A program made the translations under genes and the position numbers. The notes beneath the pieces are model-generated. The model ran no database searches, had not been told where the DNA came from, and saw nothing but the letters and a program-made list of their open reading frames with translations. Of a stretch of 29,372 nt of DNA, positions 1,384 through 27,707 are shown piece by piece. Source of the DNA: a virus; the IMG/VR virus record IMGVR_UViG_3300027771_000068, positions 1 through 29,372 of that record; one strand, written 5' to 3'. Position 1 is the first letter of the stretch; each line of letters opens with the position of its first letter.

Positions 1384-3426
1384 TTATACAATCCCTTGTG
1401 GTGGTTGAGGTGTTAATGGAGGCATTGGAGCTGCTGGAGCTGCTGGAGCCATAGGAGCAGGTGCTGGCGCAGGGACTGCTCTGTTCTCTTGTACCGCTAT
1501 GCCACGTTCTTTGAGAAGCTGCTCAGAGACTCTAATACGTCTCTCAAACTCTTTGTCGTCTGCATCTCCCACTTGTAAGTTAGTGGTTACTGCCTTAATA
1601 CGATCAATCTCTAACTCTTGTGGTATAGCCTGTGCTTCCATAGAAAGCTTACCAGCTCTAGCATCAGACTCTTTAGCCTGTCCGTTGAGTGCAGCCGTCT
1701 GTGACGCTTGGAAGGCCATTTGAGCTTGTTGTGCTTGCTGCTGTGCCTGCTGTGCTGCTTGCTCTTGCTCTGGGTTAGGCGTGTTAGCCTGCTGTAGTGT
1801 AGCAATCAACTCTTCACGGTTAGACAAGTTCATGTTATCAATGATGGACATAACTAGCTGTGGGTACATAGGCGTGTCTGGAGACATAGTTTGTAGCAAC
1901 TGTACAAGCTGTGTAACCTCGTACTCACGGGCGATAATACCCAAGGAGCTAGAAGTATGGAACTTGTAGTCAGCTACTGGATACATCTCAGGCTCAAACT
2001 GCATGTAACGCCAAGCTGCCTTCTCTACAAAAGGAATGATAAAAGCTTCTTGGAAGTTAATCAGAGTGCGTTTATGACGTTTGATGATTGCACCAAGCGA
2101 CATAGAAACACCAGCAGCAGTAGCGTCTCCGTTAACAGAACCAGCAATACCAGCACTATCAATAGCGCCCGTTGCCGTCTGAACCATAGTTTGTAGAGCT
2201 TGTGCTTGAGCAAAGGTGACCTGACTTACTTGACCGAAGTTAAAAGGTTGTAGGATTTCAGCAGGGTTTCCGTTAGTGAGAATAACTTTTCCTGGCCGAA
2301 TCTCTGGTTTAGCGCCACGAGGCATACGACTAGCGTCCATTGCCATCATAGGGTGTATAGTAAGTGCTAGAGCGTCAATACGTGCGCGTAGCTCAGTGTC
2401 TAACGCCTTCTGTGAGTTATAACCCTTCTCACACACACCACGACCCCAGAAGCGGCTAGGGACTACATCCCATGGGAATGCCACGATAGGACGGTCTTGC
2501 ATCATGTAAGGATTCTTAGTTGCTTTGAGCAGGACACCCCTGTTAGCAATAACAACAACTGCTTCTACATAGTAAGAGTCGTCTTCCTCTTCGTCAAACT
2601 CAACAAACTCTTCGTCTTCTGAGTTCTCTTCTGCCATAGCAACTTCTAACAAGTGACGAGGCACTAGACCGTAGTACTTAGTTAGTCTAACCTTGTCCTC
2701 ACCAAAGGAACTGAGGTCTGAGTCTGGTTCAATCTCAAAGTCAGTAGCAGCTTCGGAAATGTCTTCGTCACGATATACACCACTTTCCTGCAACTCTTGT
2801 ACTTTAAAGTGTGCTACAAACTCGTCTACAGCACACCCTAGTGCGTCGTCTACAGACGTAGCTACAGGGTCTATAAGGAAGTTCTGAGGCATTACAGGGC
2901 GTAGTTTAACGCATGTACGGTCTTTAATCGTAACACCTACTGCTTGTAGCTCACCACCCATAACAGGCTGTGTTGCTGGAGCCATCTCTTTTTCTGACTC
3001 TAGTACTACTTCAGCAATACCAGTGCCAAACACAGCAGCGTTAATCAAACACTCTGCCACACTCTTGCGTATCTTGTTCTTTTTAAAATCATCGTCTAAG
3101 TGGTTACGAAGCATAACAATGTCTTGCTGGTCTTGATCGTGGATGTCGTCTTTAATATCAAACCACTTACCACGGCCAAAGGTAGCTTCCTCTAGCTCCG
3201 CTACAGACGACTCTACTGCCTGTTGGAGTGCAGGAGAAATAATCTTAGATCGTTCTGTTAAACGTCCTTGATCTTCAGCAGACCATTGTCCACGCCATAG
3301 ACGGTAGTATTCATCAAACCTCTGTGAGTAGTTATCCTCGTAGTGGTCTCGCCAGTTGTCACACTTAGCCATAACCCAGTCTTCAAGAGTTTGTTCAATG
3401 TTAAATTCGTCTTCTGTATCTAGCAT
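1384..3426 (-). CDS. Portal (head-tail connector) protein
   Basis: 680 residues, longer than T7 gp8 (about 536). It forms the dodecameric ring at one capsid vertex through which DNA is packaged and leaves. The N-terminal part has the T7-type portal layout: aromatic-rich helices (RDHYEDNYSQRFDEYYRLW), then SKIISPALQQAVESSVAE and FGRGKWFDI. The middle contains PFNFGQVSQVTF, as in podovirus connectors. Two additions stand out: a very acidic stretch around residues 270-285 and a C-terminal tail of Gln/Ala repeats followed by Pro/Ala/Met repeats. It lies immediately downstream of the large terminase, the usual order. The call is confident from sequence pattern and synteny; tail functions are unknown. 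Confidence 0.9.
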   Translation of the reverse strand: MLDTEDEFNIEQTLEDWVMAKCDNWRDHYEDNYSQRFDEYYRLWRGQWSAEDQGRLTERSKIISPALQQAVESSVAELEEATFGRGKWFDIKDDIHDQDQQDIVMLRNHLDDDFKKNKIRKSVAECLINAAVFGTGIAEVVLESEKEMAPATQPVMGGELQAVGVTIKDRTCVKLRPVMPQNFLIDPVATSVDDALGCAVDEFVAHFKVQELQESGVYRDEDISEAATDFEIEPDSDLSSFGEDKVRLTKYYGLVPRHLLEVAMAEENSEDEEFVEFDEEEDDSYYVEAVVVIANRGVLLKATKNPYMMQDRPIVAFPWDVVPSRFWGRGVCEKGYNSQKALDTELRARIDALALTIHPMMAMDASRMPRGAKPEIRPGKVILTNGNPAEILQPFNFGQVSQVTFAQAQALQTMVQTATGAIDSAGIAGSVNGDATAAGVSMSLGAIIKRHKRTLINFQEAFIIPFVEKAAWRYMQFEPEMYPVADYKFHTSSSLGIIAREYEVTQLVQLLQTMSPDTPMYPQLVMSIIDNMNLSNREELIATLQQANTPNPEQEQAAQQAQQQAQQAQMAFQASQTAALNGQAKESDARAGKLSMEAQAIPQELEIDRIKAVTTNLQVGDADDKEFERRIRVSEQLLKERGIAVQENRAVPAPAPAPMAPAAPAAPMPPLTPQPPQGIV

Positions 3427-3428
3427 AG

Positions 3429-4682
3429 TTAATACCCTGCGTATTTGTCTAGGAATTCGTAGTCTTCTTCTTCATAGTCCATAGCGTAAGCAACCTTAGC
3501 TAACTGGTCAATGTACGCTAATGCATCTATCAAGTCGTCGTGGACTAGTACGTTAGGGAACTGAAACAACTCATCTAAGAACTTGCTGTTCCACTCACCC
3601 TTGTTAAGCGTTATGTTACCATGCTCGAAGCGTCCTTGTAACGCCCAAACAACTCTATCAATCTTTCTCTTATTGCCGTGTGTAAGCTCTTCCACTCTAA
3701 AGAAGCGTTGGTTCTTCTTCATAATGTCGTTGAGGTACGGATGGACAGCGTTCTTTAACGCTCCTTTCTCGATGCCGACTGAGATTGGTTTATAGTCTCT
3801 AACTGCCTCAAAGATTCTTCGAGCGGTCTCTTCAACGCCCCAGCGGCCATGTATGATATTAGCAACCCACCAGCCCTCAGTGTTCGCTTTAACAACCGCA
3901 ATAGCTGTTGAGTCAAGTCTGCTAGTCTTGGTGGTATTCTTACCCGCCTCAGAAAAGCCTGCCAAGTCAACAGCAATGTAATACTCACCATCAGTAGGCT
4001 CCTCTTCGCTAAACTTAACATATTCTTCTTTGAATAACTCACCGCCCATTGCCTCAAAAGATGCCATGAACTCCTGACGAAAGGAGAACGAAGACATAGA
4101 CTTCTTAGCAGCTTCTATCTCGTCAGCGTCCAATAGCGGGTTGTCGTAGCTCGTGAAGTGAAAACCATTAAAGGTTTCGTCGTCACCAACACTAGCGTAT
4201 GTGTATAACTCGTAGAAGTGGTTACGACCCATTGGCGTACCAATGAACATAGCTCCACCCTTCTGATCCGCAAGCGCAGGACGCAGGATTTGCTCCCAGA
4301 CCTCTGGCTTCATGTCAGCGTACTCATCCATAACCAAGTACTTGAGGCTAACACCACGCATCGTTTCTGGTCTGTCTGCACCCTTTAGAGCTAAGACAGC
4401 ACCATTTATAAACTTTATCTGTAGGTTGTTAATGTGGCTAGAGGCTATAACACTGTGTCCAATCTCTAGCAACGCTTGCCACATAATGTCCCTAGCCTGA
4501 CCCTGTGTAGGGGCAACATAGAACACCTGACCTTTAGTGGAGCTTAACGCCTCTACAATGAGCTTGTAAGCAGCTAGACGAGACTTACCTGTACGTCTGC
4601 CAGCAGCTATAACCTTAAATCTAGCGGGGTCGTCCCAGACTTCCTGCTGCCACGGCAACAAGGATATATTTAAGTCAGCCAA
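3429..4682 (-). CDS. terL: Terminase large subunit (packaging ATPase/nuclease)
   Basis: 417 residues. The packaging motor that drives DNA into the prohead and cuts concatemers. The N-terminal ATPase shows Walker A as AAGRRTGKS (Lys33), a downstream motif around YVAPTQGQARD, and Walker B as LVMDEYADM (Asp119, Glu120). The C-terminal RNase H-like nuclease starts at YIAVDLAGF (around residue 235) and carries a second acidic cluster at VHDDLIDALAY near residue 385. Length and motif order fit the large-terminase family. It lies between the 124-residue unknown gene (1-base spacing) and portal, in the late leftward operon. Headful versus direct-repeat packaging cannot be decided from this window. 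Confidence 0.94.
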   Translation of the reverse strand: MADLNISLLPWQQEVWDDPARFKVIAAGRRTGKSRLAAYKLIVEALSSTKGQVFYVAPTQGQARDIMWQALLEIGHSVIASSHINNLQIKFINGAVLALKGADRPETMRGVSLKYLVMDEYADMKPEVWEQILRPALADQKGGAMFIGTPMGRNHFYELYTYASVGDDETFNGFHFTSYDNPLLDADEIEAAKKSMSSFSFRQEFMASFEAMGGELFKEEYVKFSEEEPTDGEYYIAVDLAGFSEAGKNTTKTSRLDSTAIAVVKANTEGWWVANIIHGRWGVEETARRIFEAVRDYKPISVGIEKGALKNAVHPYLNDIMKKNQRFFRVEELTHGNKRKIDRVVWALQGRFEHGNITLNKGEWNSKFLDELFQFPNVLVHDDLIDALAYIDQLAKVAYAMDYEEEDYEFLDKYAGY

Positions 4683-5058: not shown

Positions 5059-5439
5059 TTAGTAAGTCCACATTACAGGAGACTCATTACCGTCAAGGTC
5101 GCGGATGTCAACATGCACAAAGCTACCAGCAATTCCAATTCCCGTAAAGCCCATCTTAATGGCTTCTTCAACAATCTTATAACGCTGTGTACCATCTGTA
5201 ACTTTAATATCTGCGGCAATACCTTGGGCATGTGTTCCTGCTTTCTCCTGTTTTTTCTTTGCTTCAATGGGGTGGTCTTTTGATCTATAACCACTCGTAA
5301 TAACGAAAGGGAATCCACACTTACCTCTTAACAAGTCAACAGCTAACAAGAGGTCATCGCTCATCTCGTTCTCACCTGAGTACTGGCAATCAAACTCTTC
5401 TTTAGTAAAATAGTCTAAATCGTTGTTAATGTTAAACAT
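5059..5439 (-). CDS. Endolysin-like M15 peptidase
   Basis: 126 residues, a single-domain zinc peptidase of the M15 family (D-alanyl-D-alanine carboxypeptidase or L-Ala-D-Glu endopeptidase type) that cuts peptidoglycan cross-links at lysis. The zinc and catalytic signature is clear: SGYRS at 49-53, HAQGIAADIKV (His70, Asp77) and SFVHVDIR (His109, Asp111). No signal peptide is visible, so it would need a holin to leave the cytoplasm; two candidates lie at 27324-27899. I chose the ATG at 5439 rather than the upstream in-frame ATG at 5475 because GAAGGGGAA precedes it at the right distance and it overlaps the previous gene by only eight bases. The exact bond cut is not determinable. Confidence 0.88.
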   Translation of the reverse strand: MFNINNDLDYFTKEEFDCQYSGENEMSDDLLLAVDLLRGKCGFPFVITSGYRSKDHPIEAKKKQEKAGTHAQGIAADIKVTDGTQRYKIVEEAIKMGFTGIGIAGSFVHVDIRDLDGNESPVMWTY

Positions 5440-5806
5440 CAGTGTATTCCCCTTCAATGGGTGTATCTGGTCCACTTATAACAGTGGTTTCGCCACCAAC
5501 ACCTGTAATAGAGATGTTAATGCTGTTCTGTCCACCGTTAACCTTGTCCTTCTCGAAGTAGCTAACAGGTAACAATCTATCCATACATAGTTTCCACGCT
5601 GCTGCTTGATTCTTGTGATCATCGTCTAACGCTGCATTAAGAATACTGTCTAACACCTTCCTAGACTTAGGCGATGCTAACATCCTTGCTTTGTAGTCGT
5701 TGATTATAGAAGCGTCACCTTTAGGTCTACCAACAGCATTACGTTTACCTTTAGTAACACTATCTACTTTAGCTTTCTTGGGTCTACCTAATTTCTTAGT
5801 GGTCAC
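5432..5806 (-). CDS. Putative terminase small subunit with AT-hook-like motifs
   Basis: 124 residues. Two GRPK motifs (GRPKK near residue 8, GRPKG near residue 27) resemble AT-hooks that bind the minor groove of AT-rich DNA. A helical region follows (RKVLDSILNAALDDDHKNQAAAWKLCMDRLLP) and then a beta-rich tail. It is the first gene of the leftward packaging operon, upstream of endolysin, large terminase and portal, the usual place for the subunit that recognises the packaging site. The start is GTG at 5804-5806 with GAGAGG upstream. No clear helix-turn-helix is visible, so the assignment rests mainly on position and DNA-binding character. A small regulatory DNA-binding protein is the main alternative. 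Confidence 0.6.
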   Translation of the reverse strand: MTTKKLGRPKKAKVDSVTKGKRNAVGRPKGDASIINDYKARMLASPKSRKVLDSILNAALDDDHKNQAAAWKLCMDRLLPVSYFEKDKVNGGQNSINISITGVGGETTVISGPDTPIEGEYTDV

Positions 5807-5839
5807 TGAGTTGCCTCTCTCTAGAGATTCGTTAGCGAT

Positions 5840-5959
5840 GCAAGAAATGCTAGAGCTTTAGAGTGCTAGAGTTCGCTGTAAGGACGAAGTGTGATTATTA
5901 GTTGTACTCTTCTTCAGTGTTAGCGAACTCTAGAACTCTAAAGCTTTAGCATCTCTTGC
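5840..5959. other. Long inverted repeat / 120-nt hairpin in the late leader
   Basis: The 38-base arm at 5840-5877 pairs with 5922-5959 at 35 of 38 positions by hand alignment. A second inner pairing (5883-5892 with 5906-5915, 8 of 10) closes toward a loop at about 5893-5905. It lies between the leftward promoter (5981-6009) and the first late gene, so it would form in the mRNA leader about 15 bases from the transcript 5' end. Each arm also carries internal repeats (TGCTAGAG twice at 5848-5870). No T-run follows, so it is not a simple terminator. Candidate roles are RNase III processing, leader control, packaging signal or origin. Confidence 0.8.
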
Positions 5960-5980
5960 GTTGTTTGTTCTATATAGTCT

Positions 5981-6009
5981 ATTATAGCATATTTTTTAAC
6001 AAAAGTCAA
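5981..6009 (-). promoter_or_regulatory. Strong sigma70-type promoter of the late leftward operon
   Basis: On the minus strand, TTGACT (6009-6004) and TATAAT (5986-5981) are separated by 17 bp, with an A-rich spacer. Start of transcription is predicted near 5974, giving a leader of about 170 bases before the GTG at 5806 that contains the 120-nt hairpin. It is the only promoter-like sequence found upstream of the small-terminase, endolysin, large-terminase and portal genes. Confidence 0.75.
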
Positions 6010-6549
6010 GCATTATTTACTGTTATTGTTAATTTAAGTGGATTCGTCTAAGATTCTTGTGTTTGTTAGCATATTCCACTGCTTGTTAACACCTACCCTG
6101 TCCCTTCTCTGGCGGATTTCAGTAGGTATTAGCGTCTCCGCAGTCGCTTTTTTAGTTCTTTACAATCAACTACTTAGACTATATAGTTATAACCTATTAG
6201 AGCCTTGACTTAATAGTCTAAATTGACCCTTTTTAGTATCTCTGCGGGTACAGTAACAACTCCAGCGATCCCAGCCCCTCCCCCGTCCCTCTATAGCACA
6301 CAGCTGACAGTAAAGCCAGTGCAGTCTGTGACCAGCAGAGACGATCGAGTCACCAATGATTCTGTACAGGTCATGAGAGAGTGTGCTAGTGGGTACTACT
6401 GTGACCAATAAAGCCTAACCAGTCACCTCAATATATTGACAATTATATAGCTGTGTAGTATTCGCACGCGGGCGCGCATAATAGATAGTAGGCATTCACC
6501 AGATCAATAGAGGTCAACATCATTATAAGTTAAATAAATGGCTATAAGT
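6010..6549. other. Non-coding part of the divergent control region
   Basis: About 540 bases without a convincing gene. Short open frames exist on both strands around 6187-6411, but they lack ribosome sites and mirror each other. The stretch holds an AT-rich part (6010-6060), a C-rich tract (6261-6291), a 9-base direct repeat CTGTGACCA (6326-6334 and 6399-6407) and the 11-mer GCCTAACCAGT (6413-6423) that recurs before the next operon at 8057-8067. A lone TTGACA at 6436-6441 has no good -10 box at a normal distance. The mix of AT-rich DNA, repeats and divergent promoters would suit a replication origin, but no specific origin signature was recognised. Confidence 0.5.
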
Positions 6550-6577
6550 TTGACACAGAATGACAACGCTCTATAAT
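6550..6577 (+). promoter_or_regulatory. Consensus sigma70-type early promoter
   Basis: TTGACA (6550-6555) and TATAAT (6572-6577) with a 16-bp spacer; both boxes are perfect. Predicted start near 6584, about 30 bases before the first ATG at 6613. This should make the 6613-7970 mini-operon one of the first things transcribed by host polymerase on DNA entry. Confidence 0.82.
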
Positions 6578-7367: not shown

Positions 7368-7525
7368 TGAATAAGCAAATACGAGAGTTCTACTTGGACT
7401 GGGTCAATAATTACCTGACAGTGGAAGTAATGGCAGAGCATCACGGGCTAGACGTGGTACATGCACGGGTGCTGATAGGCATAGGCAGGGATGCGCATCA
7501 ACAATATATAGATGAGGTGGCATAA
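7367..7525 (+). CDS. Duplicated early mini-protein, copy 1
   Basis: 52 residues; not recognised by name. It has REFYLDWVNNYLTVE followed by MAEHHGLDVVHARVLIG, which reads as a small helical domain resembling the 'NNYLT-E-x-A-E-x-x-G-L' mini-proteins common in tailed phages; the second part could be a degenerate helix-turn-helix. AGGAGG sits upstream of the ATG. Copy 2 lies at 7812-7970; 35 of 52 residues are identical by hand count, and 27 consecutive bases (7429-7455 and 7874-7900) are identical. Stop and next start overlap as TAATG. DNA or protein binding is possible but unproven. Confidence 0.72.
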   Translation: MNKQIREFYLDWVNNYLTVEVMAEHHGLDVVHARVLIGIGRDAHQQYIDEVA

Positions 7526-7644
7526 TGTACAGGGTATACTACTACATGTTTGATTATAGCAAATACTATACAACAATGGCTGGAGCGCATGCAGCGGGTC
7601 GCGCTTCAGGCTTTAAAGAATACACTATTACGAGGGTTAAATAA
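7525..7644 (+). CDS. 39-residue tyrosine-rich mini-protein
   Basis: Starts at the ATG overlapping the previous TAA and ends TAA at 7642-7644. Only 39 residues, with a striking aromatic N-terminus (YRVYYYMFDYSKYYTT) and a basic C-terminus (FKEYTITRVK). It looks like the small 'Y-x-V-Y ... T-x-A-G-A-x-A-x-G' phage proteins that may form a compact beta-alpha-beta unit, but I cannot name a family. AGGTGG within the 12-bp repeat is a plausible ribosome site. The overlap pattern on both sides supports a real gene. Confidence 0.55.
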   Translation: MYRVYYYMFDYSKYYTTMAGAHAAGRASGFKEYTITRVK

Positions 7645-7811: not shown

Positions 7812-7970
7812 ATGAATAAGCAACTGAGAGAATTCTATTTAGACTGGTTCAATAATTACCTGACTATAGAAAAAATGGCAGAGCATCACGGGCTAGACGT
7901 AGACGATGCTAAAACACTGATTAGCATGGGGCGCTATATGCACCATAGACATATAGAGCAGGTAGCATAG
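7812..7970 (+). CDS. Duplicated early mini-protein, copy 2
   Basis: 52 residues, the same length as copy 1 at 7367-7525, with the near-identical core REFYLDWFNNYLTIEKMAEH. Divergence is concentrated in the C-terminal 20 residues, where charge changes (DDAKTLISMGRYMHHRH). AGGTGG of the 12-bp repeat lies at a good distance from the ATG at 7812. It is the last gene before the terminator at 7990. Retention of both copies with different C-termini suggests they bind different partners or form a heteromer (inference). Confidence 0.72.
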   Translation: MNKQLREFYLDWFNNYLTIEKMAEHHGLDVDDAKTLISMGRYMHHRHIEQVA

Positions 7971-7989
7971 GAGCCATTACGGACTATTT

Positions 7990-17996: not shown

Positions 17997-18009
17997 AACC
18001 TAGAGGTAC

Positions 18010-18047
18010 AAAAAAGCCCTGTGTAGTTATCTACGCAGGGCTTTTTT
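18010..18047. terminator. Bidirectional terminator between converging operons
   Basis: A 17-base arm (18010-18026) pairs with 18031-18047 across a TTAT loop; one position is a G-U wobble. The arms begin with six A and end with six T, so the same structure gives a T-run after a GC-rich stem on either strand. It fills the 53 bases between the reductase stop (17996) and the stop of the leftward ejection-protein gene (18050), ending both transcription units. Confidence 0.93.
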
Positions 18048-18049
18048 GT

Positions 18050-27323: not shown

Positions 27324-27707
27324 TTATTTCTCTCTTTGAACGCCTTTAGACTTCTCAACTGTACGCATAGCGCCTAAGCCTAACATACCCATTAAGACGG
27401 TAGTTAACAAAGAGCTATCAACAGGAGGAACAGTAAACCAGATACTTAGAATAGGAGATAGGATAGTAGAGTACACAAGAGCGAAGCAGCATGACCATCC
27501 AACAGCAGGTCTCCATCCAGCTACAAACAGATTCTTGTGTGCCGCTTCTACCTTGTTGACCTCTAGCTGCCCCTTAGCAAGTTCTTGAGCGTGTGACTCC
27601 GCTAGAGTCGCTAGTTTAAAGGCTATTGCGTTCTTTTCGTCTTTGTCCTCAATGACTTTATCTAGTAGCTGTGTCACGGGAGCTATCAAACTCGCTAAAA
27701 TACTCAT
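27324..27707 (-). CDS. Holin, 3TM family-like
   Basis: 127 residues. The first 60 are helical and charged (DKVIEDKDEKNAIAFKLATL); the motif KNLFVAGWRPAVGWSC is the signature of the 'holin of 3TMs' family. It is followed by hydrophobic segments (FALVYSTILSPILSIWF, LLTTVLMGMLGLGAM). It would open the inner membrane to release the endolysin encoded at 5059. The ATG at 27707 has no Shine-Dalgarno sequence and lies two bases after a perfect -10 box, so either the real start is internal (a GTG at residue 11 is possible) or the promoter is not used. Assignment to the family is confident; start is not. Confidence 0.82.
   Translation of the reverse strand: MSILASLIAPVTQLLDKVIEDKDEKNAIAFKLATLAESHAQELAKGQLEVNKVEAAHKNLFVAGWRPAVGWSCCFALVYSTILSPILSIWFTVPPVDSSLLTTVLMGMLGLGAMRTVEKSKGVQREK

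Follow-up and report, generated by a model that had tools for sequence, protein, structure and literature searches.

Structured RNA directly downstream of the sigma-70 phage promoter of a long operon occurs at the HK022 put sites and in the lambda PR' leader, and put RNAs act through their specific sequence. Long double-stranded RNA also lies ahead of genes of lambda, T7 and T3, the RNAs of which are substrates of RNase III, an enzyme that needs about 22 nt of double strand (PMC5371410). In phages SPP1 and SF6, the packaging (pac) region is located between a promoter and the start of the small terminase gene; the promoter and ribosome site are common to both regions, the boxA repeats differ, and the DNA-binding domain of the SF6 small terminase binds pac DNA without sequence preference (PMC4737164). 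In the packaging RNA of phi29, which lies near packaging genes, structure outlives sequence (PMC12670572).

Here we describe a fixed repeat element, renewed from clade to clade, that marks the head of the late operon in a large group of uncultured marine podoviruses; searches of the open-access literature found no description of such a leader. Like the SPP1 and SF6 pac regions, it sits between a promoter and the start of a (here putative) small terminase gene, and promoter and ribosome site are kept while the repeats differ between relatives. Unlike them, it is dominated by an inverted repeat in the clade of the virus studied, shows no curvature in a wedge model and precedes a gene for a protein with AT-hooks and no recognised helix-turn-helix. 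With the RNase III-processed leaders it shares a long double-stranded RNA, but the stems of most relatives fall below the minimum substrate and cleavage is only predicted. It follows a sigma-70 promoter of a long operon as put and the PR' leader do, yet shows no terminator, conserved arm sequence or known antiterminator gene. As in the phi29 packaging RNA, structure is kept over sequence near packaging genes; the late leader, in contrast, is a single long hairpin within an mRNA leader, its minimum-energy fold comprising this hairpin and an inner stem, with no three-way junction.

Genomic setting

The element was identified in a 29.4-kb linear virus record (IMGVR_UViG_3300027771_000068), analysed over its whole 29,372 nucleotides and hereafter called the window. 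Its source virus is a member of the podovirus group mentioned above and has no close cultured phage, the terminase, portal and polymerase having distant cultured relatives only (21-27 percent identity to cultured phages for the portal, 50 percent to Pelagibacter phage HTVC103P for the DNA polymerase). The first late gene matched no cultured relative among 50,697 phage records. The DNA of Pseudoalteromonas phage Slicky01 matched over 40 nt, which covered the promoter stretch only, and this stretch, when used alone as a query, returned scattered promoter-like matches.

Rightward genes (6.6-18 kb) include a helicase-primase, a DNA polymerase and a class II ribonucleotide reductase; leftward genes include the portal, the large terminase, an M15 endolysin and structural genes. 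One circular order fits the maps of ten relatives and joins the two leftward blocks, so that the late block spans about 24 kb by these maps, its first gene being the one that follows the hairpin. Contig breaks of the relatives are scattered over the map, and judging a physical genome end from contig ends was therefore rejected. For the replication-origin cruciform envisaged in the first-pass annotation, we found nothing beyond a minimum of the GC skew near 6 kb, which the direction of transcription explains as well. The features of the late leader and of the genes downstream are the following:

5981-6009, minus strand: late promoter, sigma-70-type, TTGACT-17-TATAAT with extended TG at 5989-5988; spacer wording shared by relatives
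5970-5977, no strand assigned: palindrome CTATATAG across the expected transcription start
5922-5959, minus strand: hairpin 5' arm (transcript sense)
5878-5921, minus strand: hairpin loop with an inner 8-bp stem; in related clades, the surroundings of CAACUAAUAAU are better preserved than the arms
5840-5877, minus strand: hairpin 3' arm, with two TGCTAGAG octamers 16 bp apart (plus-strand reading)
5814-5830, minus strand: small hairpin whose 3' side contains the Shine-Dalgarno sequence; related clades keep the CUC...GAGG pairing, with a variable loop
5432-5806, minus strand: first late gene, encoding an AT-hook protein; small terminase by position only
5059-5475, minus strand: M15-type peptidase (endolysin)
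3429-4682, minus strand: large terminase
1384-3426, minus strand: portal protein

Elsewhere in the window, two adjacent small genes (7368-7526 and 7813-7971; MNKQIREFYLDW... and MNKQLREFYLDW...) appear by eye to be tandem paralogues, and a 29-nt direct repeat (76 percent; 6326-6354 and 6399-6427, 73 bp apart) lies in the divergent intergenic region.

Structure of the late leader

The strong leftward promoter reported in the first-pass annotation was recovered as a near-consensus sigma-70 promoter (6009-5981), and the hairpin is placed between it and the first late gene (start at 5806), as it is in the relatives. By the rule of about seven bases past the promoter, transcription would start in the palindrome CTATATAG; in the relatives, palindromic CTATAG-like words are found again at this position and also at other late promoters. 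About 15 bases separate the predicted start from the hairpin, and 33 bases separate the hairpin from the GTG start codon; a -10-like word stands just past the promoter.

The inverted repeat at 5840-5959 combines two 38-nt arms (5840-5877 and 5922-5959), complementary at 35 of 38 positions, with a 44-nt loop that contains an 8-bp inner stem (5883-5915) around a 13-nt loop; both the near-perfect 120-nt hairpin and the second stem that had been described from the letters were thus borne out. With a score of 31.4, it is the top inverted repeat of the record in a genome-wide scan, the runner-up (18008-18049, near convergent gene ends) scoring 16.8. The minus-strand RNA folds at -73.3 kcal/mol against an average of -39.2 (sd 4.1) for 200 dinucleotide shuffles, none of which was as good (z = -8.3). 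According to this folding model, a 36-pair double-stranded leader will form in the window if the region is transcribed. Internal repeats had been noted in the arms; the two copies of TGCTAGAG (5848-5855 and 5864-5871) are real, though confined to one arm.

An intrinsic terminator was rejected, as had been anticipated, given that no T-run follows the hairpin and that the terminator scan was silent. No Rfam family reached its gathering score for the leader, where only chance microRNA matches below score were returned. Intrinsically bent DNA was rejected as well: the curvature of the leader was mostly at or below that of its own shuffles in a wedge model of which the parameters were checked on A-tract controls only. 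Predicted accessibility of the Shine-Dalgarno sequence was the same without the 5' half of the leader (medians of 0.32 vs 0.35), and the idea that the long hairpin directly sequesters the ribosome site was consequently rejected.

Recurrence among relatives

From 134 loci matching the first late gene, 90 leaders with a recognisable promoter were retained, of which 41 were distinct, that of the window included. The inverted repeat outscored all 60 shuffles in 33 of these 41 promoter-to-gene stretches and was not significant in the other 8, counts that are not statistically independent given shared descent and a clade division made after the sequences had been viewed. Control stretches of equal length rarely did so, whether taken upstream (3/39 and 4/32) or within the gene (1/41); the repeat is thus a feature of the promoter-to-gene stretch only. 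It was absent from the leaders before ssb and before the second late gene group of the same phages (0/20 and 0/11); the element therefore belongs to the late leader alone, and a general leader hairpin or mRNA protector shared with other late or middle promoters was rejected.

The form of the repeat varies. RNA folding gave z < -2 in 27 of 42 leaders and fell short of it in 15 (L031, L153 and L030 being examples of leaders with no significant fold), and a near-continuous stem of at least 20 bp exists in 6/41 only. Most leaders exceed their shuffles for inverted and direct repeats alike, at equal strength in some clades; inverted similarity is clearly the greater in 15/41, among them the window (31.4 vs 14.0), and direct similarity in 5/41.

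Sequence turnover within and between clades

Arm sequences are replaced between clades, whereas the promoter, the Shine-Dalgarno region and a portion of the loop can still be aligned; length for length, their alignments between the window and related clades are better than those of the arms. The arms consist of short words centred on A/T and often palindromic, among them CTTTAAAG, CTTAAG and CTCTAAAG; in one clade, CTTAAG pairs 10 bp apart occur twice per leader. Length differences are mostly multiples of 8 nt and often affect a single arm.

Comparison of the arms for compensatory changes, proposed in the first-pass annotation together with loss of the repeat in relatives as a refutation, gave a divided answer, with the repeat present in most leaders and most stem changes uncompensated. 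Within clades, 21 changes led to G-U and 10 to A-C (transcript strand), 37 produced other mismatches and 1 was double; compensation is nearly absent, with this single double change against 47 that break pairs. Paired columns vary slightly less (87/1106) than unpaired ones (147/1453) within clades. As judged from these alignments, constraint on the leader is weak, unlike classical covariation. Strand bias of the mismatches over all leaders was rejected: G-T and A-C mismatches are balanced when pooled (47 to 44), and clades lean in opposite ways, not significantly by clade type.

The product of the first late gene

The first late gene encodes 124 residues with an AT-hook match (PF02178) and a second GRPKG motif, in agreement with the two AT-hook-like motifs noticed earlier; both GRP motifs are invariant across 28 aligned members. 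Its annotation as a small terminase was not confirmed: no match to one was obtained in Pfam, PHROGs or PDB sequences, no helix-turn-helix was recognised, and fold comparison, from a poor AlphaFold model (pLDDT 63), gave no credible small-terminase match. The label is by position only, a few genes upstream of the large terminase. AT-hook motifs in general bind A/T tracts with low specificity. Sequence-specific recognition of the arm words by this protein seems unlikely, because it is nearly invariant between clades with unrelated arms; such near-invariance would be compatible with low-specificity binding of the leader.

Distant relatives of the protein were detected at loci L299-L303 in bacterial assemblies (Halieaceae/Luminiphilus and other MAGs), perhaps in prophages or carried-over phage contigs.

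Candidate functions of the late leader

The element is probably a functional leader or a packaging site, and a precise interval is now defined where packaging initiation or late-message processing could occur. The best single explanation, which we favour tentatively, is that the main late mRNA begins with a structured 5' leader, which RNase III may cut in the clade of the window; we infer that the leader is transcribed and processed and that it affects expression. The host's RNA polymerase, carrying the housekeeping sigma factor, would initiate just ahead of the hairpin, and the nascent RNA would fold into the 36-pair stem, the leader staying self-folded in front of the first late gene's ribosome site. 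Within the clade of the window, the stem would exceed the minimum size for RNase III and the message would probably be processed to a short, defined 5' end; the shorter stems of other clades would only shield the 5' end. A double strand of about 22 bp is indeed reached by the window, which has 36 pairs broken by single mismatches, and by its CTTTAAAG relatives. The fold at z < -2 in 27 of 42 leaders, the excess of G-U over A-C among stem changes, the slightly lower variation of paired columns and the retention of loop and promoter beside differing arms count for this reading; the scarcity of long stems, the leaders below the z threshold, the near-absence of compensation and the unchanged Shine-Dalgarno access count against it. 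The earlier suggestion of an RNase III-processed or translation-controlling leader thus holds for the long duplex of the window, if transcribed, and not for most relatives or for ribosome access. We place the RNA leader slightly ahead of a pac site on two grounds: the repeat does not occur outside the stretch predicted to be transcribed, and inverted similarity far exceeds direct similarity in the window.

A pac region of a headful phage, the RNA hairpin being a by-product, is the main rival and a close one, though itself less likely than not. The small-terminase protein would load, with little specificity, on A/T-centred words repeated between the promoter and the start codon of its own gene, and the large terminase would cut nearby. 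Restriction of the repeat to the vicinity of the terminase genes and its absence from the ssb and second late leaders agree with this, as do the direct repeats accompanying the inverted ones, the invariant AT-hooks and the permuted genome suggested by scattered contig breaks, although ordinary assembly gaps also scatter contig ends. Location and repeat turnover parallel SPP1 and SF6 (PMC4737164), so this much of the pac site proposed in the first-pass annotation stands, specific binding of the arm words being the part that does not; moreover, bent DNA is the presumed target of the SF6 small terminase, whereas the late leader is not curved in the wedge model, the near-perfect 36-pair stem exceeds what binding sites need, and the terminase identity is positional. 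An unlikely origin is mutation with little selection, palindromic octamers expanding in tandem and template switching during replication copying one arm: the 8-nt steps in single arms, the lack of compensation and the self-complementarity of arrays of palindromic words all fit, but a mutational process specific to the site would have to be invoked to explain why the repeat recurs at one place in 33/41 leaders and not in the noncoding DNA nearby. Hardly more unlikely is an operator array on which a phage or host regulator, bound to the palindromic words and the start-site palindrome, would time the late promoter. The spaced CTTAAG pairs and the CTATAG-like words behind many late promoters of relatives, missing at the early promoter at 6550, speak for such an array, against which the words differ between clades and no regulator candidate was found. 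Antitermination of the long late operon, by a put-like RNA modifying RNA polymerase or a PR'-like leader, is improbable: a strong, constitutive-looking promoter followed by a -10-like word does head the late block, but no terminator was found directly past the leader, further promoters lie inside the late region, and the arms are replaced, whereas put RNAs are sequence-specific. Most improbable of all would be a leader released as a discrete packaging or assembly RNA outside the phi29 group, or serving as both pac DNA and leader RNA, with structure kept while the letters are replaced clade by clade.

Other promoters and leaders

The early promoter (6550-6577, plus strand) is a full consensus (12/12) and has neither start-site palindrome nor leader hairpin. 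At 592-490 on the minus strand, a small hairpin, CTGTCC-N-GGAG-AA-ACAG, is kept downstream of a second late promoter (TTGACA-17-TATAAT) and includes the Shine-Dalgarno sequence; the search yielded 20 distinct leaders of this type. In the ssb leaders of relatives (loci L176-L255), a short hairpin surrounds a CTTAAG word, with both sides of the stem changed (GATAC/GTATC, GGGTAC/GTACCC, GCTAC/GTAGC). Finally, a strong sigma-70-like promoter (27738-27707, minus strand) has its -10 box only a few bases upstream of the ATG of gene 27324-27707, and promoters are placed alike before this type of gene in relatives G003, G007, G008 and G009, pointing to either a leaderless message or a misplaced gene start.
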